This document shows, piece after piece, positions 5,192 through 24,613 of a stretch of 41,036 nt of DNA. A program made the translations under genes and the position numbers. Each line of letters opens with the position of its first letter. Within the stretch, counting starts at the first letter, position 1. Below the pieces are notes generated by a model that was not told the DNA's origin, searched no databases, and saw only the letters and a list, made by a program, of their open reading frames with translations. The stretch comes from an uncultured Pirellula sp. (GTDB lineage: Bacteria > Planctomycetota > Planctomycetia > Pirellulales > Pirellulaceae). The DNA lies in assembly GCA_903930765.1 (NCBI GenBank), contig CAIYZV010000201.1:1-41036 (forward strand). The letters are read 5' to 3'.

Positions 5192-5258
5192 AGGGACGTA
5201 CCGAATTGGTAGATGCGGGGTTTAGATCGCCACTAGAATCGTGGGACCTAAAACCCTG

Positions 5259-5400: not shown

Positions 5401-5507
5401 ACCCACTTGCTTACACGCGTGACTCGGACGGCTATTAGCCCGATGTTCTGTAAATCAATGATTCGGATTGGTATTATTATTGTTCTTCGAATGGAAATAA
5501 CTTCTCC

Positions 5508-6788: not shown

Positions 6789-7067
6789 GTTTGCGCCTCG
6801 GTCGAACAATTCGTGCACGGGGTTAGAGTCGCTTACCATCGGTCAATGCTGCTTTTTACTGATCGACTGTTTTGCGACGCAACACTTATCCAGAAGTAAT
6901 CCTGACAGGTGCATGGTAGACGCTCGGTCGCGATCGCCGAATGGGGCAAACGCGAAAGTTACCTGTAGGCATTGGGGGCCGTCACTGAAGGTCAAATCCT
7001 GCGAGGTCAATGGACCCCTTGGAAATTACAGAATACCCATTCGTTATGCGATCGGGATACGCGAATC

Positions 7068-7892: not shown

Positions 7893-7914
7893 CGCGACAT
7901 TCGGCTGCCAAATC

Positions 7915-9535: not shown

Positions 9536-10534
9536 ATGGCACATGTACTAGTAACTGGAGCAGATGGCTTTATTGGCTCGCACTTGACCGAGGCGTTGGT
9601 TCGTGCGGGACATCGCGTGCGTGCGTTTGTGCAATACAACTCGTTTAATTCCTGGGGTTGGCTCGATCGATGTGAATCCGACGTGCGAGGGCATTTTGAT
9701 GTTTTCGCCGGTGATGTACGCGATCCGTTTGCAGTCCGAGAAGCGATGCGAGAGATTGAAACCGTTTACCATCTCGCGTCGCTTATCGCGATACCCTACA
9801 GCTACACCGCACCGTCAAGTTACATCGAGACCAATGTCTCGGGAACGCTCAATGTTGTCCAGGCGGCAAGAGATCTGGGCACGAAACGCGTCGTTCACAC
9901 TTCCACCAGTGAGGTGTACGGGACAGCGAAATTCGTGCCGATCACCGAAGAGCATCCCTTGCAGGGCCAGTCTCCTTACTCGGCATCGAAAATCGGTGCA
10001 GACCAGATCGCAATCTCTTTCTACCACTCCTTTGGAACACCGATTTCCATTGTGCGACCCTTCAACACGTTTGGCCCTCGCCAATCCGCGCGGGCTATCA
10101 TCCCGACGATTATCTCACAGATCGCCGATGGAAAGAGGGAACTTCATGTAGGTGATCTTCGGCCGACACGGGACTTCAACTATGTGGCTGACACAGTTCG
10201 AGGGTTCCTCGCGGTTGGGGATTCGGATCAAACGGTCGGAGAGGTTGTCAATATTGGTACTGGTTTCGAGATCAGTATTGGGGATTTGGTGGCATTGATC
10301 ATTGATGTGATGGGTAAGGAAGTTACGATTGCACTCGACGAAAATCGGTTGAGGCCCGCCGAGAGCGAGGTTTTCCGATTATGCGCCAGTGCTGAGAAAG
10401 CCAAGAGGCTGACCGGTTGGTCGCCAGAGTTCGCTGGACTCGATGGATTGCGGCGAGGGCTCGAATTGACCGTCGATTGGTTTACGAACGCGAATAATCT
10501 ATCCATGTATAAGACAGGATTGTACAACGTATGA
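9536..10534 (+). CDS. legB: NAD-dependent nucleotide-sugar 4,6-dehydratase, LegB-like
   Basis: A 332-residue extended short-chain dehydrogenase, probably the first committed step of legionaminic acid synthesis: conversion of GDP-GlcNAc to the 4-keto-6-deoxy sugar. GADGFIGS (8-15) is the NAD-binding motif. TSE (124-126) in HTSTSEVYG is the dehydratase signature, distinguishing it from simple epimerases, and Y148/K152 (YSASK) is the catalytic pair. RPFNTFGPRQS and TRDFNYV are typical of the family. AGGTAAG lies about nine bases before the ATG. The next gene overlaps by 4 bases (ATGA), and the six genes after it match the rest of the leg pathway, which supports LegB over related dehydratases. 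Confidence 0.85.
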   Translation: MAHVLVTGADGFIGSHLTEALVRAGHRVRAFVQYNSFNSWGWLDRCESDVRGHFDVFAGDVRDPFAVREAMREIETVYHLASLIAIPYSYTAPSSYIETNVSGTLNVVQAARDLGTKRVVHTSTSEVYGTAKFVPITEEHPLQGQSPYSASKIGADQIAISFYHSFGTPISIVRPFNTFGPRQSARAIIPTIISQIADGKRELHVGDLRPTRDFNYVADTVRGFLAVGDSDQTVGEVVNIGTGFEISIGDLVALIIDVMGKEVTIALDENRLRPAESEVFRLCASAEKAKRLTGWSPEFAGLDGLRRGLELTVDWFTNANNLSMYKTGLYNV

Positions 10535-11712
10535 GCACGGAGTTCGTAAACTCCGTGGTTGCGGCCATCCGTAACGTTACGGGCGGCCCCAGTGCGCTCC
10601 ATGAGCCGATTTTTCAAGGCATGGAGGGCCGGTATGTGCAGCAATGCGTCGACACTGGCTGGGTTTCATCCGTTGGTGCGTTTGTGGATCGCGTGGAATC
10701 GGATTTGTGCGGCATCACAGGGACAAAATTTGCAATCGCGACAGTGAATGGCACCTCGGCGTTGCATATCGCATTACTGCTCGCCGGTGTTCAAAGAAAC
10801 GAAGAAGTTATCGTTCCAGCCCTGACGTTTGTTGGAACGGCGAACGCTATTTCGTATTGTGGAGCGGTTCCCCATTTTGTGGATGTGTGTTCGAAAACAC
10901 TAGGAATGGATGCTGAGTTACTAGAAGAGTATCTCGAAGCCGTTGCGGAAGTTGTAGGGGACGGGGTACGAAATCGCCAAACCGGCCGCCGGATTGCTGC
11001 GATTGTCCCAATGCATACATTTGGTCATCCCTGCGATATTGTGTCGCTTGGTGCGTTGGCGAATCGATATCGTATCCCTTTGGTCGAAGATGCTGCCGAA
11101 TCGTTGGGTAGTTTGTACCAGCAAAAACACACAGGCACGTTCGGGAGGTTGGGTATTCTGAGTTTCAATGGGAACAAGATCGTAACGTCAGGGGGGGGAG
11201 GAGCCATTCTCACTGACGACCCTGCTCTCGCACGGCAGGCGAAGCATTTAACAACCACCGCGAAGGTTCCCCACAAATGGGAGTACATCCACGATTGCAC
11301 CGGTTTCAACTATCGAATGCCCAACATCAATGCAGCTCTCGCCTGTGCCCAGTTGGAACAGTTGCCTCAATTTATCGAGATAAAACGCTCGACGGCGTTG
11401 CTTTACCAAGAGGCTTTCTCGGGAATCGATGGAGTGACTGTTATTGTGGAACCAGAGGGGTGCAAGAGCAATTACTGGCTCAATGCGATCAGGCTGGATA
11501 ACGGTCGTCAGCAGGATCGCGATTTGATCCTGCGAGCGACAAATGACGCAGGCTTACAGACCCGCCCCTGTTGGACACCCTTGAATCGTTTGGCGATGTA
11601 CCAAGGGTCCCCGGCATCATCGCTCAGAACGACCGATGAACTTTATGCGCAGATCATCAACGTGCCGAGTGGTGTCGGTATTGGGTTGACCCGGCGGGGG
11701 GAACGTCCATGA
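10531..11712 (+). CDS. legC: PLP-dependent aminotransferase, LegC-like
   Basis: A 393-residue DegT-family aminotransferase. LegC transfers an amino group to C4 of the 4-keto-6-deoxy intermediate made by LegB. Landmarks are HEPIFQGMEGRYV (24-36), CVDTGWVSSVG (39-49), NGTSAL (73-78), EDAAESLG (186-193) and the PLP lysine K216 in SFNGNKIVTSGGGG (211-224). The subfamily-specific opening and the WVSSVG segment are what I recognise as LegC. The ATG overlaps the legB stop, and its own stop overlaps the next start, both in ATGA form, so translation is probably coupled. Confidence 0.87.
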   Translation: MSTEFVNSVVAAIRNVTGGPSALHEPIFQGMEGRYVQQCVDTGWVSSVGAFVDRVESDLCGITGTKFAIATVNGTSALHIALLLAGVQRNEEVIVPALTFVGTANAISYCGAVPHFVDVCSKTLGMDAELLEEYLEAVAEVVGDGVRNRQTGRRIAAIVPMHTFGHPCDIVSLGALANRYRIPLVEDAAESLGSLYQQKHTGTFGRLGILSFNGNKIVTSGGGGAILTDDPALARQAKHLTTTAKVPHKWEYIHDCTGFNYRMPNINAALACAQLEQLPQFIEIKRSTALLYQEAFSGIDGVTVIVEPEGCKSNYWLNAIRLDNGRQQDRDLILRATNDAGLQTRPCWTPLNRLAMYQGSPASSLRTTDELYAQIINVPSGVGIGLTRRGERP

Positions 11713-12353
11713 AACGGAGATTGCTTTTGATCGGAGCAGGCGGGCATTGCCGGAGCTTGATCGAATCGATTGAAAGCACTGACCGTTATGAAATTGCGGG
11801 AGTGGTGGGTCTCGCGAATGAAGTTGGGATGACGATCCTCGGGTATCGAGTTCTGGGGAGTGATCATGATCTGCAGGATCTCGTGAGCGAGATTCCGCTC
11901 GCGATGGTCGCGGTGGGGCAAATCGGATCTGCGTCTCTTAGGATACGTTTTTTCGAACAGCTAGTTGCCCAGGGTGTTGAGTTGGCGACGGTGGTAGCAT
12001 CCACCGCGATCGTTTCGCGCCATGCGGAGATTGGTGCTGGGAGCGTGGTAATGCACGGAGCCATCATCAATGCTGGCGCTCGCATTGGAGTCAATTGCAT
12101 CATCAACTCGAGAGCATTGATCGAGCACGATGCGGTTGTTGGGGATCACTGCCACGTATCGACGGCCGCGGTCCTCAACGGAGGTGCCTCGCTGGGTAGA
12201 GAGAGTTTTCTCGGGAGCGGAGCGATCACGCATCAATGCGTCCGAATTGGCGATCGTTGTGTGGTTGGAGCTGGAGTGATCGTTAGAAGCGATGTTGAGT
12301 CCAATTCGGTCGTGCGTTATTTGCGAGCGGAAGATCGGGCGGTTAAGAAATGA
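11709..12353 (+). CDS. legH: Sugar N-acetyltransferase, LegH (NeuD/PglD family)
   Basis: A 214-residue acetyltransferase that would acetylate the new 4-amino group using acetyl-CoA, giving the 2,4-diacetamido-2,4,6-trideoxy sugar. The N-terminal part has LIGAGGHCRS (7-16), the substrate-binding fold of the NeuD family. From about residue 95 hexapeptide repeats form a left-handed beta-helix. H140 in IEHDAVVGDHC is in the position of the catalytic histidine of PglD-type enzymes. It sits between the aminotransferase and synthase genes with 4-base overlaps on both sides. Confidence 0.87.
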   Translation: MKRRLLLIGAGGHCRSLIESIESTDRYEIAGVVGLANEVGMTILGYRVLGSDHDLQDLVSEIPLAMVAVGQIGSASLRIRFFEQLVAQGVELATVVASTAIVSRHAEIGAGSVVMHGAIINAGARIGVNCIINSRALIEHDAVVGDHCHVSTAAVLNGGASLGRESFLGSGAITHQCVRIGDRCVVGAGVIVRSDVESNSVVRYLRAEDRAVKK

Positions 12354-13357
12354 TCCCACGTGTGCTGATCATCGCTGAGGCCGGTGTAAATCATAACGGT
12401 TGCCTCAAGCGCGCGTTCGAGTTGATCGACGCTGCGTCAGCGGCGGGAGTCGACTATGTCAAATTCCAGAGCTTTCAGGCGAAATCGCTTGTCACCAAGG
12501 CGGGCGAAAAGGCGAGTTATCAGAAACAGGCTGGCGACGCGAATGAGTCCCAGTATGAGATGATTCGAAAATTGGAGTTGAGCGCTACGGATCATGAGCG
12601 TCTCATTGAGCATTGCTCGTCTCGCGGCGTGAAGTTTCTATCAACGGCTTTTGATCATTCGAGTTTTGATTTACTTTGCCGCGTTGGGATCGATCGGGTC
12701 AAAATACCGTCGGGTGAGATCACCAACGTGCCCTATCTGAGGCGTGTGGGGGCGGTTGGTTTACCGGTGATTCTCTCGACGGGAATGTCAACGCTTGCTG
12801 AGATCGAGTTTGCTATTGAAACCCTCGAACTGGTTGGGATGTGTCGCCAGGATCTGACAGTACTGCATTGCAATACAGAGTATCCGACGCCGATGCACGA
12901 TGTAAACTTACGAGCGATGGTTACGATTCGGGACGCATTCCACGTCGCGGTGGGTTACTCGGATCATACGCTCGGGATTGAGATTCCCGTCGCAGCGGTA
13001 GCCATGGGAGCCTGTGTTATCGAAAAGCACTTTACGTTGGATCGCAGTTTACCGGGGCCGGATCATGCTGCTAGTTTAGAGCCCGGCGAGTTGATCGCCA
13101 TGGTGCGATCCATTCGCAATGTTGAATTGGCGTTAGGAGACGGGCTTAAACGCCCCAGCAAGAGCGAGGCGCCCAACAAAAATGTGGCTCGCAAGTCCAT
13201 CGTGGCGTCGCGGCCGATTCTCAAGGGCGAATTGTTTACCAGCGAGAATTTGACGGTCAAGCGTCCGGGGCATGGGATCAGTCCAGCGCTATGGGATCAA
13301 TGCATCGGAAGGGTCGCAACGCGCGATTACTTCGAGGATGAGGTGATCCAGTGGTAA
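12350..13357 (+). CDS. legI: N,N'-diacetyllegionaminate synthase, NeuB family
   Basis: A 335-residue synthase that condenses 2,4-diacetamido-2,4,6-trideoxymannose with phosphoenolpyruvate to give legionaminic acid. IIAEAGVNHNG (7-17), VKFQSF (37-42), KIPSGEITN (117-125), STGMST (143-148), HCNTEYPTP (176-184), GYSDHT (200-205) and EKHFTLDR (223-230) are all NeuB-family landmarks. The last 60 residues are an antifreeze-like SAF domain (GHGISP). It could be a sialic or pseudaminic synthase on sequence alone; the surrounding leg genes favour legionaminate. The ATG overlaps the legH stop by 4 bases. Confidence 0.9.
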   Translation: MIPRVLIIAEAGVNHNGCLKRAFELIDAASAAGVDYVKFQSFQAKSLVTKAGEKASYQKQAGDANESQYEMIRKLELSATDHERLIEHCSSRGVKFLSTAFDHSSFDLLCRVGIDRVKIPSGEITNVPYLRRVGAVGLPVILSTGMSTLAEIEFAIETLELVGMCRQDLTVLHCNTEYPTPMHDVNLRAMVTIRDAFHVAVGYSDHTLGIEIPVAAVAMGACVIEKHFTLDRSLPGPDHAASLEPGELIAMVRSIRNVELALGDGLKRPSKSEAPNKNVARKSIVASRPILKGELFTSENLTVKRPGHGISPALWDQCIGRVATRDYFEDEVIQW

Positions 13358-14526
13358 ACAAAAAAAGAATCTGCGTGGTGACTGGCAGTCGAGCGGAGTA
13401 TGGTTTGTTGCGGCATCTCATGGACGCGATAAAGGCCTCTGAATGGTTGTCGCTTCAGTTGATTGTTACTGGGATGCATCTGTCGCCAGAGTTTGGTTCG
13501 ACATATCAGGAGATCGAAGCAGACGGTTTCCGAATCGATCGCAAAGTGGAGATGTTGCTGTCTTCAGATACGCCCGTTGGCATCGGCAAATCGACGGGGC
13601 TCGGAACGATCGGCATGGCGGATGCCATCGATCAACTCAAGCCCGACATGATGCTCGTCCTAGGAGATCGGTTCGAAGTTTTGGCGGCGGTGATTGCTGC
13701 ATTGTATGCCAGGATTCCGGTCGCACACATTCATGGTGGCGAGACGACCGTGGGTGCCTTTGACGAAGGAATCCGTCATGCGATCACGAAAATGTCCCAC
13801 CTGCACTTTGTCTCCACGGAGCAGAGTCGGCGCCGAGTGATCCAATTGGGAGAGAATCCACGCCATGTATTCCATGTGGGAGGGTTGGGAGTCGACGCAA
13901 TTCGACGCCTCGATTGGCTCAGTTTCGAAGAAGTTGAGCAACGGGTCGGGATATCGCTAAGCCCTCGTTTTCTGTTGATTACCTTCCATCCGGTGACGTT
14001 AGAAACATCGACTGCGGAACAACAGTTCCGTGAATTGCTTGCCGCGATTTCGAAATTGGAGGACATGAAGTGCGTGTTTACGCTTTCGAATGCGGACACG
14101 GACGGGAGAGTGATTTCGGGGCTAGTAAAAGAGTTTGTTGGCCAGCGAAGCGATTCTGCGGTTGCCCACGTGTCGTTGGGGCAAAGGAACTACTTATCTG
14201 CGGCAAAATATGCCTATGCCGTTGTCGGGAACTCATCAAGTGGCTTGCTCGAGGTTCCATCGTTGGGTACCCCGACCATCAATATCGGAGATCGGCAAAA
14301 AGGGCGGGAAACGGCACCGAGTGTGATCTCGTGCAATGCCACGTCTCAGGAGATTTTCCATTCATTGACGATGCTCGAGGATGGGAGTTTTCAGGAATCG
14401 ATCCGAGCAGGCACGAATCCTTACGAGCGACTGGGCACAGTCGAAGAGATAGTCAAGACATTAGAAACGTTTTCAATCAACGAATCTACCGTCAAGAAAT
14501 GCTTTTATGACCTCCCGGCGTCATGA
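13351..14526 (+). CDS. legG: Hydrolysing nucleotide-sugar 2-epimerase, LegG
   Basis: A 391-residue enzyme of the UDP-GlcNAc 2-epimerase (hydrolysing) family. It would release and epimerise the LegH product to 2,4-diacetamido-2,4,6-trideoxymannose, the substrate of LegI. Motifs include VTGSRAEYGLL (10-20), GDRFEVLAA (near 106-114), HIHGGETT (near 127-134) and HPVTLE. It begins with GTG at 13351, overlapping the legI stop by 7 bases, and no later start gives the SRAEYG motif. The gene order synthase then epimerase is common in neu and leg clusters. Confidence 0.88.
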   Translation: MVNKKRICVVTGSRAEYGLLRHLMDAIKASEWLSLQLIVTGMHLSPEFGSTYQEIEADGFRIDRKVEMLLSSDTPVGIGKSTGLGTIGMADAIDQLKPDMMLVLGDRFEVLAAVIAALYARIPVAHIHGGETTVGAFDEGIRHAITKMSHLHFVSTEQSRRRVIQLGENPRHVFHVGGLGVDAIRRLDWLSFEEVEQRVGISLSPRFLLITFHPVTLETSTAEQQFRELLAAISKLEDMKCVFTLSNADTDGRVISGLVKEFVGQRSDSAVAHVSLGQRNYLSAAKYAYAVVGNSSSGLLEVPSLGTPTINIGDRQKGRETAPSVISCNATSQEIFHSLTMLEDGSFQESIRAGTNPYERLGTVEEIVKTLETFSINESTVKKCFYDLPAS

Positions 14527-14548
14527 GATTGAGTGATCGAGTCGGAAA

Positions 14549-15625
14549 ATGCAATTAAGTGATTACCTCAGCAAGGCGACGATCTCGATTCGGGAGGCCG
14601 CCGAGAAAATCGACACCAACGGTAGGCAACTGATGTTGGTCGTCGACGATGATGAGAAGCTCATCGGAATCGTAACCGATGGTGACATTCGTCGTGGAAT
14701 GTTGGCGGGGCTAGGCCTGGATTCACCCGTGAAAGCGATCATGGGAACCAATCCGGTTACGGTCAGCGAAGAATGTACTTCGCAAGAAGCGGAAGCGATC
14801 CTGCACGGGCTGGTCATCAATCATATTCCTATCGTGGATAGGGCTGGACGCGTGGTGGGTATCTTTACCCGGGATACTATCATCCACGATGAGATTCTGC
14901 CCAATACCGCTGTTTTGATGGCGGGTGGCGAAGGAGTTCGCCTCCGTCCATTGACGATGGATTGCCCCAAGCCACTTTTGAAGATCGGTGGTAAACCGAT
15001 TCTGGAAACATCCATCGAGTTGCTTCGAGATAGTGGGTTTAGAAAGTTCATCATCACCGTTCAGTACCTGGCTGAAAAAATCGTTGAGCACTTTAGAGAT
15101 GGAAGTCGATGGGGGGTCTCCATCGAATACATCCACGAAACTGAGCAGCTCGGGACCGCAGGGGCTTTAAGGTATCTGACGAGCAAATTGAGCGAACCGT
15201 TGCTGGTGATGAACGGAGATCTATTGACGCGAGTGAACTACAAGCACCTTTTGCACTACCATAAGAAGCATCAAGCGACAGCCACGATGTGTGTCAAGCA
15301 GGTTGCCCAGCAGATACCCTTTGGCGTGGTTGAATTGGAGGGCAATGAGGTTCGTTCGATCGAGGAAAAACCGACATCTCGGTACTTTATCAACTCCGGA
15401 ATCTACGTGATCAATCCTGAGGCTGTTCAGGCAATTCCGGTCACATCCCAGTATCACATGACGACCTTCTTTGGGGATCTTAAGGCAAAAGGATGCAAAA
15501 CCATCGCCTATCCTATTCGAGAGTATTGGCAAGATATCGGGCAGCCTGAGGATTTCGATTCTGCATGCAAAGAGTTTGGCAAGCACTTTCAGAACGTGTT
15601 GGGTCGAGGATTCGATGCTAGGTAA
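14549..15625 (+). CDS. ptmE: CBS-domain nucleotidyltransferase, PtmE-like (glucosamine-1-P guanylyltransferase)
   Basis: A 358-residue protein. Residues 1 to about 118 are a pair of CBS motifs (IVTDGDIRRG at 41-50, GIFTRDT at 104-110). Residues about 120-350 are an NTP transferase with LMAGGEGVRLRPLT (123-136) and CPKPLL (139-144). In Campylobacter, PtmE makes GDP-glucosamine from GlcN-1-P and GTP, supplying the GDP-linked route to legionaminic acid. The same two-part architecture and gene context are seen here. GTP specificity is inferred from the family. The gene starts 22 bases after legG, and its end overlaps legF by 11 bases. Confidence 0.85.
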   Translation: MQLSDYLSKATISIREAAEKIDTNGRQLMLVVDDDEKLIGIVTDGDIRRGMLAGLGLDSPVKAIMGTNPVTVSEECTSQEAEAILHGLVINHIPIVDRAGRVVGIFTRDTIIHDEILPNTAVLMAGGEGVRLRPLTMDCPKPLLKIGGKPILETSIELLRDSGFRKFIITVQYLAEKIVEHFRDGSRWGVSIEYIHETEQLGTAGALRYLTSKLSEPLLVMNGDLLTRVNYKHLLHYHKKHQATATMCVKQVAQQIPFGVVELEGNEVRSIEEKPTSRYFINSGIYVINPEAVQAIPVTSQYHMTTFFGDLKAKGCKTIAYPIREYWQDIGQPEDFDSACKEFGKHFQNVLGRGFDAR

Positions 15626-16313
15626 CAACCGAGTTCTCGGGATTATCCCTGCCCGAGGTGGCAGTGTTGGGATTCCGAACAAAAACATTCGCCAACTGCA
15701 CGGTAAGCCGCTGATCGCATGGACGATCGAATCGGGTAAGAAGTCTACCGTCATTGACAGATTGATCGTATCGACTGATTCTGAAGCGATTGCCGATGTG
15801 TCGCGTTTTTATGGCTGCGACGTGCCATTCATGCGTCCAGCGGAATTTGCGGCGAGCGACTCCCCAGGTGAATTAACTGTGATTCACGCACTGGAGCAGT
15901 TGGGAGGATTTGACATCGTGGTGCTATTGCAACCGACGTCTCCGTTGCGGTCAAGCGACGATATCGACAGTGCGGTGCGATTGCTTGTTGAAACCGAGTC
16001 AGAATCGTGCATCAGTGTGACGGAATCACATCCGCATCCCAATTGGATGAAACGCATGGTTCACGGTAAGCTTCGACCATTCCTCACCGATGCGATCGCG
16101 CCGACGAGACAATCGCTTGAGCCCGTCTACGGCATGAACGGGGCTGTTTACGTTGCGAAGGTAAAAGCATTTTTGGAAGCTCGTGGTTTCCATACAGATA
16201 ACATTGCGGGTTACGTGATGCCAGCTCATCGTTCTTTGGATATCGATACGGAGTATGATTTGATTCTCTGTGAGAGACTCATTCAATTCGCTGAGAGCGG
16301 AGGTTCGTTTTGA
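15615..16313 (+). CDS. legF: CMP-legionaminic acid synthetase (acylneuraminate cytidylyltransferase family)
   Basis: A 232-residue enzyme that activates legionaminic acid with CTP. It has the family opening IIPARGGS (10-17), PNKNIR (21-26), STDS, LLQPTSPLRSSDDI and, near the end, LDIDTEYD. The ATG at 15615, inside the end of ptmE and preceded by GAGG, places the CTP-binding loop at the N-terminus; the open frame upstream of it has no family sequence. One oddity: the residue after GGS is Val (V18), where the better-known enzymes have Lys (SKG); the second lysine of the loop (K23) is kept. The stop overlaps the next ATG-containing start by 4 bases. Confidence 0.88.
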   Translation: MLGNNRVLGIIPARGGSVGIPNKNIRQLHGKPLIAWTIESGKKSTVIDRLIVSTDSEAIADVSRFYGCDVPFMRPAEFAASDSPGELTVIHALEQLGGFDIVVLLQPTSPLRSSDDIDSAVRLLVETESESCISVTESHPHPNWMKRMVHGKLRPFLTDAIAPTRQSLEPVYGMNGAVYVAKVKAFLEARGFHTDNIAGYVMPAHRSLDIDTEYDLILCERLIQFAESGGSF

Positions 16314-17164
16314 ATAAAAAGAATATCCGCGTCATCCCTCGCATGGACATCAAAGGGCCTAATTTAGTTAAAGGGATTCATCTTGAAGGTTTGCGGGTAC
16401 TAGGCAGCCCTGAGGAATTTTCCAAATACTATTACGAGAATGGCGCGGACGAACTTCTGTACATGGATGTGGTAGCAAGTCTTTACGGACGGAACAGCCT
16501 TTTTGACATCATTCAGCGTACAGCCAAGCATGCGTATATTCCGTTAACGGTGGGTGGTGGGATTCGAGGCATAGAGGATATTCGAACCGCCCTGAGGGCG
16601 GGCGCGGATAAGGTTTGTTTGAACACAGCGGCGGTGAGGAATCCGGAGTTGATTCAGAGTGCATCCAAGCGATTTGGATCGTCCACCATTGTTATAGCGA
16701 TTGAAGCGATCAAGCAACCCGATGGGAGATATCTCGCATTCACGGATAACGGGAGAGAGGAGACAGGGCTTGACGCGTTCGAGTGGGCGCAGCAAGCCGA
16801 AGCGTTGGGGGCAGGAGAGATCGTTGCAACCTCCGTGGATCGAGAAGGAACTGGATCAGGGTATGATTGTGAATTTGTGCGAAGGATGGCGGATTCACTC
16901 TCGATTCCCGTCATTGCGCATGGTGGTCCCGGGAACGCGCGGCATGTGCAGGAGGTCGTAACAATGGGGCGCGCGGATGCAGTCGCTGTCGCGTCGATCC
17001 TTCACTATCACTACATTCAATTGCGAAACGACACATTTTCTTCGTCGAGCGAGGGTAACACAGAGTTTCTGAAACGCGGGTCGCAATCGAGAAGACTCGC
17101 CCCCTCGAGTATCTCGGCAATCAAGGAATGTGTGCGAAGCGAGACCCTTGATTGTCGGGTTTGA
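16310..17164 (+). CDS. HisF-like protein, ammonia-channel partner of sugar amidotransferase (module 1)
   Basis: A 284-residue (beta/alpha)8-barrel homologous to the synthase subunit of imidazole glycerol phosphate synthase, but in a sugar operon. VIPRMDIKG (8-16) retains the first catalytic aspartate of true HisF (D13), but the second is replaced by glutamate (E132 in IAIEAIKQ). TVGGGIRG (80-87) and the late AHGGPGNA are the phosphate-binding loops. A C-terminal extension of about 35 residues is absent from histidine-pathway HisF. Other members of this sugar-associated group, as I recall them, share the Glu. It probably passes ammonia from the HisH-like glutaminase to the amidotransferase at 17838. 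It is not a histidine biosynthesis gene: no other his genes are nearby. It begins with TTG at 16310 (TTGAATAAAAAG), overlapping the legF stop. Confidence 0.85.
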
Positions 17165-17180
17165 AACCGGCGTAGGTACG

Positions 17181-17825
17181 ATGAGTACAGTAATAATCGA
17201 CTACCAACTCGGAAATCTTTTCAGCGTTCACCGCGCCTGTTCAGCGGTTGGAATGGATGTGAAAATTTCCTCGTCTGCCGAGGATTTGCTCAAGGCGGAT
17301 CGAGCCATTCTTCCTGGTGTGGGCGCTTTTCCGGATGCGATTGAGAACCTCGAGCGACTAGGGCTTGTCGATGCGATTCGCGAATTTGTTGCGATTCGGA
17401 AACCGCTGATGGGTGTCTGCTTGGGGATGCAATTGCTTTTTACTTCGAGCGAGGAGTTTGGGCATTCAAAGGGCTTGGATCTCGTCAAAGGGTGTATTCG
17501 CAAGCTTCCCAACCAAGAAGTTGGCGGCTTGCATTATAAGGTTCCCCATATCGGATGGGCTCAGTTGCAACTCACCGAGCGAGGTTACGCGTCCGATTCG
17601 CCTTTACGATCCATCAGTGAGCGATCGTACATGTATTTCGTTCATTCGTTCTACGCGGAAGCCCAGCAGGAGTCTGCAGCAGCGTTTACGCATTATGGGA
17701 ACCATGTTTTTTGTTCTGCGATCCGGCAGGACAACCTATTTGCCGTTCAGTTCCACCCCGAGAAGAGCGGTGAACTGGGGCTTGCGATTTACAGAGACTG
17801 GTCAAGTTTCAAAACCACCTGTTAG
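17181..17825 (+). CDS. HisH-like glutamine amidotransferase (module 1)
   Basis: A 214-residue class I glutaminase that releases ammonia from glutamine for the HisF-like partner. The nucleophile C80 is in GVCLGMQLL (78-86), and the other triad members H192 and E194 are in FHPEKS. PGVGAF (45-50) forms the oxyanion region. The ATG at 17181 gives the standard N-terminus VIIDYQLGNL; upstream in-frame sequence from 17130 overlaps the hisF-like gene and is not family-like. It lies 16 bases after the hisF-like gene and 12 bases before the amidotransferase. With an intact triad it should be active. Confidence 0.88.
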   Translation: MSTVIIDYQLGNLFSVHRACSAVGMDVKISSSAEDLLKADRAILPGVGAFPDAIENLERLGLVDAIREFVAIRKPLMGVCLGMQLLFTSSEEFGHSKGLDLVKGCIRKLPNQEVGGLHYKVPHIGWAQLQLTERGYASDSPLRSISERSYMYFVHSFYAEAQQESAAAFTHYGNHVFCSAIRQDNLFAVQFHPEKSGELGLAIYRDWSSFKTTC

Positions 17826-17837
17826 GAACCACAATTC

Positions 17838-19076
17838 GTGAACGACAACAAAATAGATCTCGAAAGCGATTCGAATCTGGAAGCATTTTACGGCTTGCCG
17901 CGACAGGTTAAGTTTTGCTGCAGGTGCGTCATGTCGAATCAACGACCTGCCTCGGCCGTTGAGTTTCGGCATACGATTGACTCGAAGAAAGAGACGCTCG
18001 CGTTCGACGAAGACGGGGTTTGCGATGCCTGCCGCGTTGCAGAGGCAAAGGAGAAGATCGATTGGAAGTCAAGAGAAGATCAGCTATTGGAACTCTTGGA
18101 CAAGTACCGGCGCAACGATGGTCAGTATGATTGCATCGTTCCGGGAAGCGGTGGTAAAGATAGTTGCTATCAATCGCACGTGTTGAAGTACAAGTACGGG
18201 ATGAATCCTCTGACGGTGACATGGCCACCGATCCTCTATACCGACTATGGGTACGAGAATTGGAAGAACTGGATCGATGTTGGTGGGTTTGATAATTTGT
18301 CGTTCCGTCGGAATGGACGAGTCATGAAGCTTTTGACGCGTCTATCGATCGAAAATCTATTCCATCCGTTCCAGACTTTTATTCTCGGACAGAAGAATCT
18401 CGGTCCGAAACTAGCTGCGAAACTGGGTATTCCGTTGGTGTTTTATGGTGAGAATGAGGCAGAGTACGGGAACCCAATCGCCGACACCTCAACATCGCTT
18501 CGAAGTAAGAGCTTTCACACGTACCAGAATGTTGATGAGGTGTTTCTGGGTGGCGTTTCGATTCGCGAGCTTCGCGATAGGTACGACCTGTCGATCAATG
18601 ACCTAACTGCCTTTTTACCTGCCCCGGCGGAGGAGATCGCAAGGACGGATGTCCAAGTACACTACCTTGGGTATTACCTGAAATGGACACCACAGGAAGT
18701 GTATTACTACGCGGTGGATCATTGCGGATTCAAGGCGAGGCCGTTCAGGACCCAGGGTACGTATAGCAAGTACAACAGCATTGATGACAAGATCGATGAT
18801 CTGCATTATTGGACGACCTTTATCAAATTTGGGATCGGAAGGGCGACGTACGATGCATCCCAGGAGATCAGAAATAGGCACTTGACCCGGGAGGAAGGTG
18901 TCGCGTTGGTGAAGCGGTTTGATGGTGAGTTCCCCGATCGCTACATCGATGACGTGATGGACTATCTCGAAATGGATCGCGAGCAATTTATTGCAATGGC
19001 CGACAGATTCCGTTCACCGCATCTTTGGCGCCGATCCGAGGGCGGAGAGTGGCAACTTAGGCATCACGTGGAATGA
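17838..19076 (+). CDS. N-acetyl sugar amidotransferase (module 1), PseA/WbpG family
   Basis: A 412-residue ATP-dependent enzyme that converts an N-acetyl group on a sugar to acetamidino, using ammonia supplied by HisH/HisF-like partners. Two CxxC pairs (C27/C30 and C62/C65) look like a zinc site. The PP-loop PGSGGKDS (102-109) is the ATP-pyrophosphatase motif. GENEAEYG and RPFRTQGTYSKYNSIDDK are further conserved-looking blocks. GTG at 17838 is the start, with TAGGA about 12 bases upstream. Because it follows the leg genes without a break, its likely substrate is a legionaminic acid intermediate, giving an acetamidino form, as PseA does for pseudaminic acid. The exact substrate is inferred. 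Confidence 0.85.
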   Translation: MNDNKIDLESDSNLEAFYGLPRQVKFCCRCVMSNQRPASAVEFRHTIDSKKETLAFDEDGVCDACRVAEAKEKIDWKSREDQLLELLDKYRRNDGQYDCIVPGSGGKDSCYQSHVLKYKYGMNPLTVTWPPILYTDYGYENWKNWIDVGGFDNLSFRRNGRVMKLLTRLSIENLFHPFQTFILGQKNLGPKLAAKLGIPLVFYGENEAEYGNPIADTSTSLRSKSFHTYQNVDEVFLGGVSIRELRDRYDLSINDLTAFLPAPAEEIARTDVQVHYLGYYLKWTPQEVYYYAVDHCGFKARPFRTQGTYSKYNSIDDKIDDLHYWTTFIKFGIGRATYDASQEIRNRHLTREEGVALVKRFDGEFPDRYIDDVMDYLEMDREQFIAMADRFRSPHLWRRSEGGEWQLRHHVE

Positions 19077-19112
19077 TCCCGAACCGGATTACGCCGAGTG
19101 TTCTATAAGTGA

Positions 19113-20576
19113 ATGATGGATTACGACGAGATCAAGCGTTGTTTGGGCGATTTTGAGGAGAAGTACGATGTATACCGGTACTTGTTCGAGGGGTGGAGTG
19201 TTTGGTCATTGCTTCGCCACTCGGTAACGCACGCTCTCGTGCGAAAGGACTCGTTGCCAGTTCCGCCGAAGCACGCGTCAAAAATTATGAGTCGCCGCGA
19301 GCGAATCATCGAGACCGCAAAGGATTTGCTGTTCTTAGTTCGACCGAGGCGATATCGTTCCACGCTCGTTGTCACATGTTCGAGCGTGCACACGGAATCG
19401 GCATTGGGCAAGGCCAAGGACTGGTTGTTTGATGATTACTGCGGATCCTTCAAAAACCTTGTGAAGCTTGAACGGATTAATAATCGGAGCTTCTTCGAGC
19501 ATCATGGAAAGCAATTTATCCCACGGCAATTGTCGGATTGCGGATTCCACGCCTTGACCCGATTTTCGCGGGTAGGTTCCTTGAGCGATCGCGAAAAGTC
19601 GGACGTCGCGGAATTATCAGGGCAGATCGAAAGCGAGTTTCAGATTGATGGTTGTTCGGAAAAAGAACTCGAGCAACGATTGAGTAATTTTGCCCGCTCG
19701 AAGAAAGTTTGGGGGTTCATTTGCAAGAGACTGAAGGCCAATCTCATTGTATGCGACGACGGATATTACCAGCATGGTTTGATTGCTGGGGCCAAGGAGA
19801 TGGGATGCGGTGTGATTGAATTACAGCATGGTGCGTTTGTTCCATCTGGCCCTGAGTATGGATGGCCATCCCAGGCTTACAAGTATCGCGAGACAATTCC
19901 GCTCCCAGATCGTCTATTTCTCTTCGGTGAGCATTCAAAAGAGATGCTCGATCGAGATGACTTTTGGCGCGAGCGCATTCGAGTGATCGGAAGTTCTCGA
20001 ATCGACGCGTACCGCTTCGACTCGGAATCGACCGTAAAGAGTAGTAGCGGACCGGTTCGCATACTCTTTACGAGTCAAGGTATTTGTGCGGAGCAAGTGG
20101 TTCTGTTTTTAAAAGATTTCATGCGATTGTTTCAGCCATGGCGAGATGTACAACTGGTGATACGATTGCATCCTGCTTTTGACTTTCATCCGGAAATCTA
20201 TCGCGATGGGTTCGTAGGCGATAGTAGGGTAACGATCATGGATTCGAAAGGTGCGGAATCCGTATATGGATCCCTAAAAGCAGCTGATTTGCATCTTAGC
20301 GTATCCTCAACCTGCCACTTCGATGCTTTGGCATTGGGAACCCCGAGCGTTGTGCTGGCATTTCCGTCCCATGAGATCATGAGTGATCTTTGGGAGCGGG
20401 GCCACGCAGGGTTTGCAAGAACACCGATCGATTTATACGACTATGCAAGAGCGATTGTGGGACAACGCGCGCCTCGAGAGTTATCGGATTTTTATTACAA
20501 ATCCGGAGCAAAGAGGAATTTCGAGCATGAGGTTTCCGAGTATTTTCGAAATCAAAGGTCGACCGTTGTTGCTTAG
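19113..20576 (+). CDS. Probable GT-B glycosyltransferase, KpsS/capsule-synthesis-like
   Basis: A 487-residue protein without a membrane segment. Its C-terminal half resembles capsule-type GT-B transferases: ELQHGAF (236-242), RLHP (351-354) and SVSSTCHFDALALGTPSV (397-413), a pattern seen in Kdo-, sialic-acid- and glycerol-phosphate-transferring capsule enzymes. The N-terminal 200 residues are not recognised. It sits between the two amidination modules, right after the CMP-legionaminate genes, so a CMP-nonulosonate transferase is a reasonable guess, but no donor can be read from the sequence. Two adjacent ATGs (19113 and 19116) are possible starts. The fold assignment is fairly confident, the specificity is not. 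Confidence 0.65.
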   Translation: MMDYDEIKRCLGDFEEKYDVYRYLFEGWSVWSLLRHSVTHALVRKDSLPVPPKHASKIMSRRERIIETAKDLLFLVRPRRYRSTLVVTCSSVHTESALGKAKDWLFDDYCGSFKNLVKLERINNRSFFEHHGKQFIPRQLSDCGFHALTRFSRVGSLSDREKSDVAELSGQIESEFQIDGCSEKELEQRLSNFARSKKVWGFICKRLKANLIVCDDGYYQHGLIAGAKEMGCGVIELQHGAFVPSGPEYGWPSQAYKYRETIPLPDRLFLFGEHSKEMLDRDDFWRERIRVIGSSRIDAYRFDSESTVKSSSGPVRILFTSQGICAEQVVLFLKDFMRLFQPWRDVQLVIRLHPAFDFHPEIYRDGFVGDSRVTIMDSKGAESVYGSLKAADLHLSVSSTCHFDALALGTPSVVLAFPSHEIMSDLWERGHAGFARTPIDLYDYARAIVGQRAPRELSDFYYKSGAKRNFEHEVSEYFRNQRSTVVA

Positions 20577-20590
20577 TCCGCTTAGAAGAT

Positions 20591-20779
20591 ATGACAGTTG
20601 AAGAATCATCCAACGGCAACCTAGACGTGACTAAAGGCAAACAGTCGGCAAGCGACATTGGGGTTTTCAACGGGCTTCGTCCGGATGGCATTGGAGCCCA
20701 ATCTTCTCGTTGTCGAGGGAATCGTTGTGGGCCATCTCTGCCGCTTGCTCAATTTCTGGTGAGAACTCGGAAGCGATGA
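20591..20779 (+). CDS. Possible small protein (62 aa) linking the GT gene to module 2
   Basis: An ATG-initiated 62-codon frame that begins 15 bases after the stop of the preceding gene. Its TGA overlaps the ATG of the hisH-like gene (ATGA at 20776-20779), the same coupling seen at many junctions in this operon. The product is polar, with an acidic start (MTVEESS) and a basic Arg/Lys-rich C-terminus (VRTRKR); no motif, membrane segment or signal peptide is recognised. The Shine-Dalgarno is weak (AGAAG). It may be a real small gene, a fragment of a deleted gene, or a chance frame in a 199-base gap. Confidence 0.3.
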   Translation: MTVEESSNGNLDVTKGKQSASDIGVFNGLRPDGIGAQSSRCRGNRCGPSLPLAQFLVRTRKR

Positions 20780-21420
20780 TCACGATCGTTGACTACGATA
20801 CCGGCAATCTTCGATCGGTTCAAAACATGCTGCGTAGCATTGGTGTTGATTCGCAATTCGCAAGGACTGCGAGAGAATTAGAGTCGGCATCGAGGATCAT
20901 ACTCCCTGGGGTTGGGCAGTTTGCCTATGGAATGCGAAGGCTGATGGAACGCGATTTCATCGGAGTCCTGCGTGATAAGGTACTCGGCCAGGGAACTCCG
21001 GTGCTGGGAATTTGCCTGGGCGCCCAGTTGCTCACTCGGAGAAGCGACGAGGGCGATGTCGACGGACTCGGTTGGATCGCCGCGGACACGCGGCATTTCG
21101 ATACGGCGTTGCTCCCGAAGGGAACCCGAATACCTCATATGGGCTGGACCGATACGGATTATTGTCCGGCACACCCGATTTTCGATGGCGTTATGGATAC
21201 CCCTCGATACTACTATGTCCATTCCTATCACATGGTTTGTGACAATCCATCGGACGAGCTATGCCACGCGTTTCATGGATACCGTTTTACCTCTGGCATC
21301 GCGAGGGAAAACATCGTTGGAGTGCAGTTTCATCCCGAGAAGAGTCATCGTTTCGGAAAGCTGTTGCTCGCTAATTTTGCAAAATGGTCCCCTGAAGGTA
21401 ATCCTAACGAGGGATCATGA
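20776..21420 (+). CDS. HisH-like glutamine amidotransferase (module 2), HisH2 type
   Basis: A 214-residue class I glutaminase, distinct in sequence from the module 1 copy. The triad is intact: C80 in GICLGAQLL (78-86), and H186 and E188 in FHPEKS. PGVGQF (44-49) corresponds to the oxyanion loop. The ATG at 20776 gives the normal start MITIVDYDTGNL; upstream codons back to 20710 are not family-like. It overlaps the hisF-like gene by 4 bases. It is expected to supply ammonia through the HisF-like protein to the amidotransferase at 22232, as HisH2 does for WbpG in the Pseudomonas aeruginosa O5 cluster. Confidence 0.87.
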   Translation: MITIVDYDTGNLRSVQNMLRSIGVDSQFARTARELESASRIILPGVGQFAYGMRRLMERDFIGVLRDKVLGQGTPVLGICLGAQLLTRRSDEGDVDGLGWIAADTRHFDTALLPKGTRIPHMGWTDTDYCPAHPIFDGVMDTPRYYYVHSYHMVCDNPSDELCHAFHGYRFTSGIARENIVGVQFHPEKSHRFGKLLLANFAKWSPEGNPNEGS

Positions 21421-22217
21421 ATCGCATTCGAGTGATCCCTACGTTGCTTCTCGATCGTGACGGAAGATTGGTAAAGACGATCCGTTTCGGTAAGCGTACC
21501 TACATCGGTGATCCAATCAACGCGGTTCGAATCTTTAATGAGAAGGAGGTCGATGAGCTTATCTTGCTTGACATCGATGCGACTTTAGACGCGAGAACTC
21601 CTGACTATGCGAGGATCGAAGACATCGTCAGCGAAGCCTTTATGCCGGTTGCATTCGGCGGTGGGATCACGTCGGTTGAGCAAATGGCGACGGTGATGCG
21701 GTGCGGCGTCGAGAAGGTAGTTCTTAATGCAGCTCTGCACAAAAACAAGGACTTGATTGGCGAGGCTGCATCGAGATTCGGTAGTCAAAGCGTTGTTGGC
21801 TCTATCGATGTCAAAAAAGCATTTTTCGGAGGGTACATAGCGACCTCGCATTCCGGAAAGAAACGTCTCAGCGGAATTCCAGAGGACATTGCGAGCTATC
21901 TGGAGCGTTGTGGGGTTGGCGAACTGATCGTTACTTCGATGGACCGCGATGGAACGCGAAAGGGGTACGACCTACCGTTGTTAAAAGGGATTGCGGATCG
22001 GGTAGGTATTCCTGTGATCGCATGTGGTGGGGCGGACAGTCTAGAGCATTTCGTAGAAGCGCATGACATTGCCGGGTGCACGGCTGTGGCGGCAGGCAGT
22101 ATGTTTTTATTTCAGAGTTCTACGCAGGGGGTATTGATCAGCTACCCGACACGAAATGAACTCGAGACGCGGGTGTTCTCGCGATTGCGATGCAATCAGG
22201 GCTTGCAAACGACATAG
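21417..22217 (+). CDS. HisF-like protein (module 2), HisF2 type
   Basis: A 266-residue barrel close in pattern to Pseudomonas HisF2: VIPTLLLDRDG (6-16), IFNEKEVDELILLDID (39-54), GSQSVVGSID (122-131) and IACGGADS. Leucine (L11) occupies the place of the first catalytic aspartate of histidine-pathway HisF, whereas the second (D131) is kept, the reverse of the module 1 protein. This fits a role as ammonia conduit rather than imidazole glycerol phosphate synthase. The ATG overlaps the hisH-like stop (ATGA). Confidence 0.87.
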   Translation: MNRIRVIPTLLLDRDGRLVKTIRFGKRTYIGDPINAVRIFNEKEVDELILLDIDATLDARTPDYARIEDIVSEAFMPVAFGGGITSVEQMATVMRCGVEKVVLNAALHKNKDLIGEAASRFGSQSVVGSIDVKKAFFGGYIATSHSGKKRLSGIPEDIASYLERCGVGELIVTSMDRDGTRKGYDLPLLKGIADRVGIPVIACGGADSLEHFVEAHDIAGCTAVAAGSMFLFQSSTQGVLISYPTRNELETRVFSRLRCNQGLQTT

Positions 22218-22231
22218 GGCCGATCCAGATT

Positions 22232-23407
22232 ATGATGCAAGAAACTACAAAACTGGAAACGGCTCCGAGCGATCCGGGCTATCGGATATGCGCAAAGACC
22301 ATCATGGATACGTCGGATCGTTTAATATCCTTCGATTCCAATGGTGTTTCCAACCACTACTACGACTATTTCGAGCAGGAAAAATCTCACGTGCTGAGAG
22401 GGGTGGAGGGAGAAGATCGTCTTAAGGAGATGGCGAATCGCATTTCTCGCCACGGCGCAGGTCGCAAATATGATTGCATCTTGGGTCTCAGCGGAGGCGT
22501 CGATAGTACATACCTTTGTTTGCTCGCAAAACAGTTAGGTCTCCGTCCATTGGTCGTTCATTTCGACAATGGATGGAACTCGGAACTGGCTGTCAACAAC
22601 ATCGAAAACACGGTGAGACGCCTAGGTTTCGACCTGTACACTTATGTATGCGATTGGATGGAATTTCGCGAGTTGCAGCGGTCGTATTTTGCAGCGAACG
22701 TCGTTGACATCGAGGTGCTAACCGATCACGCCTTCATGGCGACCCTATATCGGCAATCACTCAAGCATCGGATAAAATATGTATTAGGCGGGATGAATTG
22801 CGTCACGGAGGCGATTCTACCTAGCGATTGGATCTTTAACAAAAACGATTTGACGAATATTAGGGGAATCCAGAGTCGATTCGGCGAGAGATCGTTTTCC
22901 GCGTTGCGTTCGTATCCCAGCATGGGACCAGAACGGCGACTTTATATACAGAGAGCGCTCGGGATTGAAGTGCTTAGTCCATTGAACTGGGTCGACTATC
23001 GGTACGATCAAGTCAAAGAGCAGATCAAAGAGGAGTTGGGTTGGCGCGACTATGGTGGCAAGCATTACGAGTCGGTGTTCACCCGTTTTTATCAGGGGTA
23101 TATACTTCCGAACAAGTTCAAATTCGATAAGCGTCGCGCCCACTTATCAACCTTGATTTGCTCGGGTCAAATGACTCGCGATGAGGCGTTAGCGAGCATC
23201 ACGCAACCAGGGTACGACGAAGTGTTCCTGCGGCAAGATTTAGCCTTCGTTTTGAAAAAACTAGGTTTCACGATCAGTCAATTCGAGCAGTATTTGGTTG
23301 CACCGCGAGTTGAACATAGCGCATACGGCGTATCGCGAGGCTTGCATGAACGATACGCTTGGCTCTACTGGCTTTGGCGTAAGACAAAGCGTCTTGTCCA
23401 AAGGTAG
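22232..23407 (+). CDS. N-acetyl sugar amidotransferase (module 2), WbpG-like
   Basis: A 391-residue member of the same amidotransferase family as the gene at 17838. The PP-loop SGGVDS (87-92) is intact and the GGMNCVTEAILPSDW segment is typical. The N-terminal region that normally carries two Cys pairs has only one cysteine there (C20 in RICAKT); the second pair is replaced (GVSNHYY, 38-44). The zinc site is therefore probably absent, although the surrounding IMDTSD and SFDSNG framework remains. In-frame ATGs at 22190 (overlapping the hisF-like gene), 22232 and 22235 are possible; 22232 avoids a 28-base overlap. WbpG acts on the diacetamido-uronic acid in Pseudomonas, so the wbp-type sugar made by 2177-6788 is a candidate substrate. 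Confidence 0.82.
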   Translation: MMQETTKLETAPSDPGYRICAKTIMDTSDRLISFDSNGVSNHYYDYFEQEKSHVLRGVEGEDRLKEMANRISRHGAGRKYDCILGLSGGVDSTYLCLLAKQLGLRPLVVHFDNGWNSELAVNNIENTVRRLGFDLYTYVCDWMEFRELQRSYFAANVVDIEVLTDHAFMATLYRQSLKHRIKYVLGGMNCVTEAILPSDWIFNKNDLTNIRGIQSRFGERSFSALRSYPSMGPERRLYIQRALGIEVLSPLNWVDYRYDQVKEQIKEELGWRDYGGKHYESVFTRFYQGYILPNKFKFDKRRAHLSTLICSGQMTRDEALASITQPGYDEVFLRQDLAFVLKKLGFTISQFEQYLVAPRVEHSAYGVSRGLHERYAWLYWLWRKTKRLVQR

Positions 23408-23440: not shown

Positions 23441-24613
23441 ATGTTGAAAGCAAAAACTTGTATTCGGTACCTTGAAGGACTCGAGAGGATTCTCATTATT
23501 TCGCCTCAGCCTTGGACCGGATTTAAGGTGTCGAAGCATCATTACGCCAAGGAACTAGCCAAATTAGGGAATAAGGTATATTTCTTGAATCCGCCCAATG
23601 CCGAAAGGCGGATGCGTGGGATTCATGTCGCAGGGGCTGACTTCGAGCATGGACGGATCGAAACGGTTGATTACCGAACTTGGTTTCCGTACATCATCAA
23701 GTTCCACTCGAAAGTACTTTTTGATATCGGAATGCGAATTCAGGCGAAAAGGATTCTGATGCGCCTTGGAGAGAAACCGACTTTAGTTTGGGACTTCGAT
23801 GAAAGCTATCAGTTCTTTGATCTTCGATGGTTTGGTGCTGGAATAAATATTTTTCACCCTGTCGACCAAGTTTCATCAAGTATGAATACAAGCAAGTATG
23901 CGGACTTCGTTCTATCCGTTGACGCTTCGATCACGAAGCGATTGACTAGAAACGATGCGCCAACTCTAATTGTTCCGCATGGTTTATGCTGTGAGTACGA
24001 GCAGTATGGAATTGAAAGGCTGTCATACAGAGCCACGGGAAATCGGGACGGATCTCGATTTGGCGATCCAATTCGTGTTGGTTATGTTGGGAATCTCCTC
24101 GCGCGTTCAATCGACAGGCCCGCATTCCTTAAGATCATAGATAGCCATCCCTCAGTTCAGTTTGAGCTTTTTGGGCCTTGGGAGGTAAGCGAGGGTCAAC
24201 CCAAAGATATCGTCGAGTGGTTGAACACGATTCGAAACCGGGATAACGTTCGACTCCATGGTTTGGTAAGTCAAGAGCGAATTTTACAGGAGGCGCCAAA
24301 GGTGCATCTTTGGTTAGTTTGCTATGATTCCACTCTTGATCAAAATGGGGGGACGAACAGTCATAAGGTCTTAGAGTATTTGGCTACGGGAAGCCCAGTT
24401 GTTTCCAACCTACTCGATGCCTATGCCGAATCAGGACTCCTTGTAACACCGCAGGAGAAGGGAAATCGAAAACTTCCAATGGTTTTCGCGGACGCAATTT
24501 TGCGTCTTCCCGCGTTGCATAGTGTCGAATCGCGTCGGCAGCGAATTGAGTATGCACTTGAGCATGGATATCGATATCATTTAAAACGAATTCAAGAGTT
24601 CATCAACCATTGA
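23441..24613 (+). CDS. GT-B glycosyltransferase (family 1/4-like)
   Basis: A 390-residue cytosolic-face transferase. The N-terminal domain begins with a Rossmann-like strand (RILIISPQPW, 16-25). The C-terminal domain starts near residue 212 (IRVGYVGNL) and contains NSHKVLEYLATGSPVVS, the donor-binding region with its conserved Glu. VPHG (near 182) is the interdomain segment. It resembles the TuaH-like transferases annotated in capsule clusters. Acceptor and donor cannot be predicted. The coding sequence is more A+T-rich than the genes before it. Confidence 0.75.
   Translation: MLKAKTCIRYLEGLERILIISPQPWTGFKVSKHHYAKELAKLGNKVYFLNPPNAERRMRGIHVAGADFEHGRIETVDYRTWFPYIIKFHSKVLFDIGMRIQAKRILMRLGEKPTLVWDFDESYQFFDLRWFGAGINIFHPVDQVSSSMNTSKYADFVLSVDASITKRLTRNDAPTLIVPHGLCCEYEQYGIERLSYRATGNRDGSRFGDPIRVGYVGNLLARSIDRPAFLKIIDSHPSVQFELFGPWEVSEGQPKDIVEWLNTIRNRDNVRLHGLVSQERILQEAPKVHLWLVCYDSTLDQNGGTNSHKVLEYLATGSPVVSNLLDAYAESGLLVTPQEKGNRKLPMVFADAILRLPALHSVESRRQRIEYALEHGYRYHLKRIQEFINH

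Follow-up and report, generated by a model that had tools for sequence, protein, structure and literature searches.

The closest described systems share components with the locus considered in this study, a pair of HisF-HisH-amidotransferase modules in 41,036 nucleotides of DNA from an uncultured Pirellula sp. (contig CAIYZV010000201.1), hereafter the window. In Legionella, a PtmG homologue converts CMP-5,7-diacetamido-legionaminic acid (CMP-Leg5Ac7Ac) to its 5-acetamidino derivative (CMP-Leg5Am7Ac) (PMC3766260). The N-acetyl sugar amidotransferase (NASAT) of Legionella pneumophila (LpNASAT) has a 32-residue spacing between its second and third cysteines (Cys47 and Cys79), and a tetracysteine zinc motif is given as characteristic of the WbuX/NASAT family (PMC10607449). 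Flagellin glycosylation in Campylobacter coli VC167 involves two acetamidino nonulosonic acids in one organism, the derivatives of pseudaminic acid (PseAm) and legionaminic acid (LegAm) (PMC3958885). Cluster B of Sphingomonas sp. LM7 brings together WbuX, AglZ/HisF2, HisH, a pyridoxal phosphate-dependent aminotransferase, an acetyltransferase, an MviM dehydrogenase and a GT4 glycosyltransferase. Insertions in this cluster alter colony form, and transposon hits in its WbuX, AglZ/HisF2, HisH, aminotransferase, acetyltransferase and MviM genes gave altered, non-mucoid colonies in every case (PMC11340318).

The window resembles each of these systems in part. Its module A WbuX is similar to the Legionella NASAT (PDB 8WEX) and to the PtmG step of Leg5Am7Ac formation, but the window adds a second module; 8WEX itself may or may not be the PtmG homologue of the published lipopolysaccharide locus. 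Module B recalls AglZ and the WbpG/HisH2/HisF2 system for 2-acetamido-3-acetamidino-mannuronic acid (ManNAc3NAmA) in Pseudomonas aeruginosa, since its HisF passes the AglZ/HisF2 model and WbpA-, WbpB-D- and WbpE-like enzymes are encoded in the cluster. However, the module B WbuX lacks three of the zinc cysteines, WbpB and WbpD are fused and no WbpI-type 2-epimerase was found within the gene cluster. Module B is also similar to the LM7 cluster, although no legionaminic acid (leg) genes are among the LM7 hit genes in the available part of that report (PMC11340318). Whereas C. coli VC167 places two nonulosonic acids on flagellin, the window combines one nonulosonic acid with a probable diamino hexuronic acid and encodes two HisF/HisH pairs.

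We consider it likely that two acidic sugars, each amidinated by its own module, are built into a surface glycan by the enzymes of this locus, with module A acting on legionaminic acid and module B on a diacetamido uronic acid. Both amidinated sugars would enter one glycan; with a single carboxylate and a single amidinium on each, the partial offset of charge put forward in the first-pass annotation would follow chemically. If true, the product would be a naturally occurring zwitterionic polymer with one cation chemistry on two sugar backbones. In open-licence full texts, we recognized no account of two such modules.

Two modules in one locus

All six genes were found as open frames on the forward strand in 16310-23407, and their family scores bear out the first-pass annotation, which had described two complete HisF/HisH/amidotransferase sets in this interval. 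Module A is ordered HisF-HisH-WbuX. Its HisF-like protein, the putative ammonia channel partner (16310..17164), scored 256.9 bits with the WbuZ model and 255.1 bits with the HisF model, both under cut-off; the HisH-like glutaminase (17130..17825, with an in-frame ATG at 17181) scored 196 bits with TIGR01855; and the WbuX/PtmG-type NASAT of the Legionella type (17838..19076) scored 364.7 bits with TIGR03573 (cut-off 203.2) and carries the PP-loop SGGKDS and the CCCC zinc motif. A glycosyltransferase-like gene (19113..20576, forward strand) separates the modules; its matches to surface-polysaccharide models are weak and far under cut-off, and it has no Pfam match. Module B is ordered HisH-HisF-WbuX and comprises a HisH-like glutaminase (20710..21420, with an in-frame ATG at 20776; 201 bits with TIGR01855), a HisF-like protein of the AglZ/HisF2 family (21417..22217) and a WbuX-like amidotransferase of a subgroup lacking the zinc motif (22190..23407; 261.5 bits with TIGR03573, PP-loop SGGVDS). 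The module B HisF passed the AglZ/HisF2 model NF038364 at 320.2 bits (cut-off 310), whereas the module A HisF failed at 194.8 bits. The opposite order of HisF and HisH in the two modules was thus as annotated, as was the distinctness of the paralogues: identities between A and B of 27% for WbuX (over 121 aa), 34% for HisF and 32% for HisH rule out a recent tandem duplication. No third WbuX was found at E 0.001 in the source genome, which is 96% complete.

The C/H/E glutaminase triad is intact in both HisH proteins, while each HisF has lost one of two aspartates: D11 is kept and D130 changed to E in module A, and D11 is changed to L and D130 kept in module B. We take D11 and D130 to be the catalytic aspartates of HisF, as required for imidazole glycerol phosphate (IGP) synthase; neither module retains both. 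The substitutions are typical of each clade described below, occurring in 16/18 partner genes of the A clade and 51/59 of the B clade. In addition, the source genome has its own separate hisF (C504) and hisH (C161), which score higher with histidine-family models than the window copies. From the intact triads, the HisF changes and the separate genomic copies, both modules look like ammonia-delivery pairs combined with an ATP-using amidotransferase, not histidine enzymes. The family resemblance and the passing of the general HisH model by both HisH proteins would also fit spare histidine-biosynthesis genes, but the higher-scoring genomic pair and the clade-typical aspartate changes make this exceedingly improbable. 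In each module, ammonia freed from glutamine by HisH would be passed to WbuX by HisF, which would no longer act as an IGP synthase, and the WbuX-like PP-loop enzyme would use ATP to convert an acetamido group to an acetamidino group.

Clades, neighbourhoods and double loci

WbuX proteins were drawn from 392 genomes of the phylum of the window (24 over cut-off), from named genomes scanned for relatives of module B (80 loci) and from 395 genomes of the class of a Chitinophagaceae genome (129 over cut-off). From this last set only the genomes of loci L148-L149 and L156-L195 were fetched, having been selected for co-located pairs or high scores. After score, length and duplicate filters, 176 of 195 WbuX-like matches remained, giving 178 proteins with the two from the window. 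In the FastTree phylogeny, the modules do not share one tight clade or the same partners: module A (with 22 others) and module B (with 122 others) fall in separate clades, each with a support of 100, and their neighbours differ. The N-terminal cysteine region was missing from 2/122 B-clade rows, 2/22 A-clade rows and 1/32 of the other rows. Among the readable B-clade relatives of the window protein, 76/120 keep CCCC and 44/120 have lost one to three of the cysteines.

At least three leg genes were found within 10 kb of WbuX in 13/22 A-clade loci versus 1/122 B-clade loci (Fisher p 6e-12, related loci not being independent), with marker thresholds that we set ourselves and with short contigs hiding neighbours. 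WbpB or WbpE was found within 10 kb in 2/22 A-clade versus 41/122 B-clade loci (p 0.02), and a PseI context characterized 15 of the 32 WbuX proteins outside both clades. HisF preceded HisH in 17/17 A-clade cases (both within 4 kb and on the same strand as WbuX; the L073 case also counts the module B pair), whereas HisH preceded HisF in 61/61 B-clade cases and 24/24 others under the same limits. We also typed, by best match, 42 WbuX genes from 37 gammaproteobacterial genomes; 38/369 genomes searched had matches, and G400 was left out because it equals L108. With some contigs short, leg context was found for 8/15 A-type and 0/10 B-type genes and wbp context for 0/15 and 2/10, respectively, while the remaining genes had leg context in 4/17 and PseI context in 5/17.

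These counts bear on the idea that legionaminic acid is the target of both modules, which would yield a 5,7-di-acetamidino sugar or leave the two redundant. In the window as in L073, both modules do stand after a leg operon, but L073, itself a double locus, is the sole B-clade locus with at least three leg genes within 10 kb, and leg context is absent from the B-type genes of the Gammaproteobacteria; we regard this idea as very unlikely. Two Chloroflexi loci (L129 and L137) were considered as examples of module B in a legionaminic acid pathway and rejected. The LegB-like protein of L129 (scanned as L154) scores under the LegB cut-off, and neither module has a LegC, LegI or LegG over threshold nearby.

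L073, found by sequence scan on contig JAFKGQ010000003.1 of the Chitinophagaceae bacterium SCN18 (genome G392, from which L148 and L149 also come), provides a parallel to the window and, for module B, the strongest evidence. Its order is LegB, LegC, LegI, LegG, PtmE, LegF, HisF, HisH, WbuX (74% identical to that of module A), a glycosyltransferase, HisH, HisF and WbuX (50% identical to that of module B). A WbpB/D/E-class dehydrogenase, acetyltransferase and aminotransferase directly adjoin module B downstream, followed by a GT1-like gene. The leg-A-glycosyltransferase-B order and the downstream GT1 are as in the window; L073 has its WbpB/D/E-class genes between module B and GT1, whereas the wbp-like genes of the window lie upstream of its leg operon. 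This repeated order in another bacterial group, with WbpB/D/E-class genes adjoining module B, joins the separate clades and different neighbours in lending genomic support to the proposal of the first-pass annotation that each module serves one sugar. Ammonia-fed amidation modules may therefore be specialized, each with its own glutaminase, and the sequence markers described here distinguish legionaminic acid modules from others.

Double A and B triads were found in at least 2 of the 1,156 genomes in the three genome samples (392, 395 and 369 genomes), those of the window and the Chitinophagaceae bacterium; such counts are lower bounds because co-located pairs were picked among the matches listed. 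L147 and G393 have A- and B-type WbuX on one contig stretch but no second triad of either type. A pseudaminic-type triad occurs together with a B-type triad in G406 (L164) and probably in G682 (L160, L161). Two WbuX genes with a single HisF/HisH pair occur in several of the loci fetched, for example L076, L112, L144, L156 and L157. In L160-L161 (G682) and L150-L152 (G393), four or five WbuX genes accompany about two HisF/HisH pairs, which suggests that these loci share ammonia suppliers.

Candidate sugars of the two modules

The leg operon (9536-16313) lies directly upstream of 16310-23407 on the same strand, and the module A genes stand at its end. It encodes a LegB 4,6-dehydratase (9536..10534; 516 bits with TIGR04180, cut-off 475), a LegC aminotransferase (10531..11712; 517 bits with TIGR04181, cut-off 420), a NeuD-type sugar acetyltransferase (11709..12353; 184 bits with TIGR03570, cut-off 160.8), a NeuB/LegI nonulosonate synthase (12350..13357; 494 bits with TIGR03569, cut-off 399.7), a NeuC/LegG hydrolysing 2-epimerase (13351..14526; 469 bits with TIGR03568, cut-off 235.9), a protein with nucleotidyltransferase and CBS-type matches that we take to be PtmE-like (14549..15625) and a LegF/PseF-like CMP-sugar synthetase (open frame 15471..16313, with an in-frame ATG at 15615; 148 bits with TIGR03584, under the cut-off of 205.7). 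Four enzymes of the legionaminic acid pathway thus pass their cut-offs, LegI and LegG by the NeuB and NeuC models.

The module A WbuX matched 8wex, the structure of the Legionella amidotransferase, with a score of 560 bits and shares the 32-residue cysteine spacing of LpNASAT. Judged from these likenesses and the adjoining operon, the product of module A is probably Leg5Am7Ac; the module would act on CMP-Leg5Ac7Ac, the substrate proposed for PtmG and for the homologue in Legionella. The glycosyltransferase-like protein at 19113-20576 is a candidate transferase for CMP-activated legionaminic acid. A homologue with 23% identity stands between the two modules of L073 as well and scored 18.6 bits with PF05159 (cut-off 20), and an AlphaFold model of the window protein, built from 3 sequences, was too poor for use (mean predicted local distance difference test (pLDDT) score 41.5). 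When 34 A-type proteins were placed in a tree, the window WbuX grouped with 9 proteins from the Bacteroidota sample (99/96), away from the one protein of its own family, which suggests horizontal transfer.

Genes resembling the wbp pathway lie upstream of the leg operon (2150-6788, forward strand) and likewise outside 16310-23407. They encode a WbpE-like aminotransferase of the DegT/AHBA type (2150..3274), with PseC/ArnB-like scores all under equivalog cut-offs and with relatives near B-clade WbuX; a fusion of a WbpB-like Gfo/Idh/MocA dehydrogenase and a WbpD-like hexapeptide acetyltransferase (3280..5001; PF01408 and PF00132; 135.5 bits with the UDP-N-acetylglucosamine (UDP-GlcNAc) 3-dehydrogenase model, cut-off 450); and a WbpA-like nucleotide-sugar 6-dehydrogenase (5508..6788; 420 bits with the subfamily model TIGR03026, cut-off 189.8, and no specific equivalog over cut-off). 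Relatives of the WbpB-D fusion (at least 45% identity, at most 10 kb away) were found near 9/122 B-clade and 0/22 A-clade WbuX genes. L057 has a relative of similar length with 51% identity. Module B probably amidinates a 2,3-diamino uronic acid, and would act on 2,3-diacetamido-2,3-dideoxyhexuronic acid supplied by these WbpA/B-D/E-like enzymes. The GT1 glycosyltransferase gene adjoining module B (23441..24613, forward strand) encodes a candidate transferase of its sugar. GT1-like genes of at least 100 bits were found within 10 kb of 29/44 cysteine-lost versus 2/76 CCCC WbuX genes of the B clade (p 1e-14, ignoring kinship; 29/44 versus 9/76 at 50 bits), and in 16 of these 29 cysteine-lost loci the GT1-like gene starts at most 60 bases from the end of WbuX.

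Several observations weigh against this assignment of sugars. No leg, PseI or wbp marker was found within 10 kb of 76/122 B-clade and 9/22 A-clade loci. Leg clusters can also employ WbuX proteins that do not belong to clade A (leg context in 4/32 of the remaining group of the tree and in the 4/17 of the Gammaproteobacteria). In the window, 14 kb separate the last of the wbp-like genes from module B. The first-pass annotation had both a leg-type and a wbp-type pathway present; the former stands and the WbpA/B/D/E enzyme classes are there, but none of them reaches an equivalog cut-off for specificity in the pathway to UDP-2,3-diacetamido-glucuronic acid (UDP-GlcNAc3NAcA), and the WbpB/D/E-class genes in L073 likewise fall short of theirs. 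The WbpI 2-epimerase is required for the manno configuration; no WecB/WbpI-type non-hydrolysing 2-epimerase scored over cut-off in the genome, which has two fragments at contig edges elsewhere, and the gluco form of the module B sugar therefore seems likelier. The excess of wbp genes near cysteine-lost WbuX was neither upheld nor contradicted by a tree-corrected pairs test (6 pairs, median p 0.6), and we know of no biochemistry on any cysteine-lost WbuX enzyme. Finally, LM7 remained mucoid after deletion of wzy in the same cluster (PMC11340318), so the LM7 phenotypes may reflect dead-end intermediates.

The frequent lack of wbp genes in the B clade would fit a different assignment, in which module A acts on legionaminic acid, module B acts on another N-acetyl sugar such as N-acetylfucosamine (FucNAc), as WbuX and LfnA do for N-acetamidinofucosamine (FucNAm), and a uronic acid without modification is the product of the wbp genes. 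Consistent with this, the Chloroflexi B members lie near a LegB-like dehydratase under the LegB cut-off, the start of a neighbouring gene in L154 looks WecB-like by eye, and the module B HisF scored 261.5 bits with the WbuZ model, under the cut-off of 299.7. However, that HisF passes the AglZ/HisF2 model, WbpB and WbpE together were found near 20/44 cysteine-lost versus 7/76 CCCC genes (p 9e-6, ignoring kinship), module B of the G392 double locus has WbpB/D/E-class genes next to it, and no FucNAc-pathway model scored over cut-off among the matches listed for 31 window proteins. We consider the FucNAc assignment unlikely.

Zinc-cysteine loss and the remainder of the window

The module B WbuX keeps one cysteine of the tetracysteine motif, with C34, T37, S54 and Y57 at the four positions of CxxC...CxxC. 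The CCCC motif is retained in all 21 readable A-clade proteins, that of the window included, and in all 31 readable proteins outside both clades, and no cysteine loss was found in the 42 gammaproteobacterial WbuX genes, judged from the spacing pattern. Among the 45 cysteine-lost proteins, including that of the window, the first cysteine is invariant (45/45), and 36 have Tyr or Trp at the fourth position. The sphingomonad WbuX proteins L081, L090 and L092 are also cysteine-lost. On a careful B-clade tree of 83 rows, built from the full set of 45 cysteine-lost rows and alternate CCCC rows, the loss requires 8 changes, indicating that it arose or reverted several times.

The predicted model of the module B WbuX had a mean pLDDT of 91.0, and a fold search ranked 8wex first (E 1.4e-14, template modelling score 0.63-0.67, root mean square deviation 5.3-5.7), followed by 1q15 (E 2.6e-6). 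Based on this model, the enzyme should work like members of the NASAT family despite the missing mark, and we file it so, rather than as a full member. With three of the four cysteines given as characteristic of the family (PMC10607449) gone, the gene could instead be decaying or its product non-catalytic. We regard this as highly improbable, because 44 relatives share such losses, which rules out private decay of the window gene, the first cysteine is kept throughout and the PP-loop is intact; 36/44 cysteine-lost genes have HisF and HisH at a distance of at most 10 kb, 29/44 have the GT1-like neighbour, and the predicted fold is confident. The need for the zinc tetracysteine site in the NASAT family is thereby put in question. 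In open-licence full texts, we recognized no description of a zinc-free NASAT. More tentatively, and somewhat short of an even chance, a zinc-free NASAT branch with one invariant cysteine and a dedicated glycosyltransferase may act on 2,3-diamino uronic acids, being combined here with a Legionella-type legionaminic acid module to give a doubly zwitterionic polymer, in which each of two different acidic sugars would be neutralized by an amidinium of its own, as a gene block exchanged between phyla.

Six genomes (L039, L063, L159, L202, L229 and L231) have close WbuX-like pairs in which the second gene has a deviant PP-loop, such as SGTGDD or VGDAED; for the first gene, the PP-loop reading covers 5/6 pairs, the pattern failing for L202. 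The second genes perhaps encode inactive partners.

Between the wbp-like genes and the leg operon, an ABC exporter of the Wzm/Wzt type is encoded at 6972-9189, and a weakly Wzy-like protein is encoded at 29432-30928, so the glycan may be exported by either route. Downstream of the modules, the latter is accompanied by glycosyltransferases, a NodU-type carbamoyltransferase (33128-34876), homologues of which occur near 5/122 B-clade WbuX genes, and an exosortase U domain protein (34901-36547; 107 bits, cut-off 40). A PEP-CTERM protein is encoded at 119-1051, and together with exosortase U it raises the possibility that the glycan locus is linked to a protein-sorting system.

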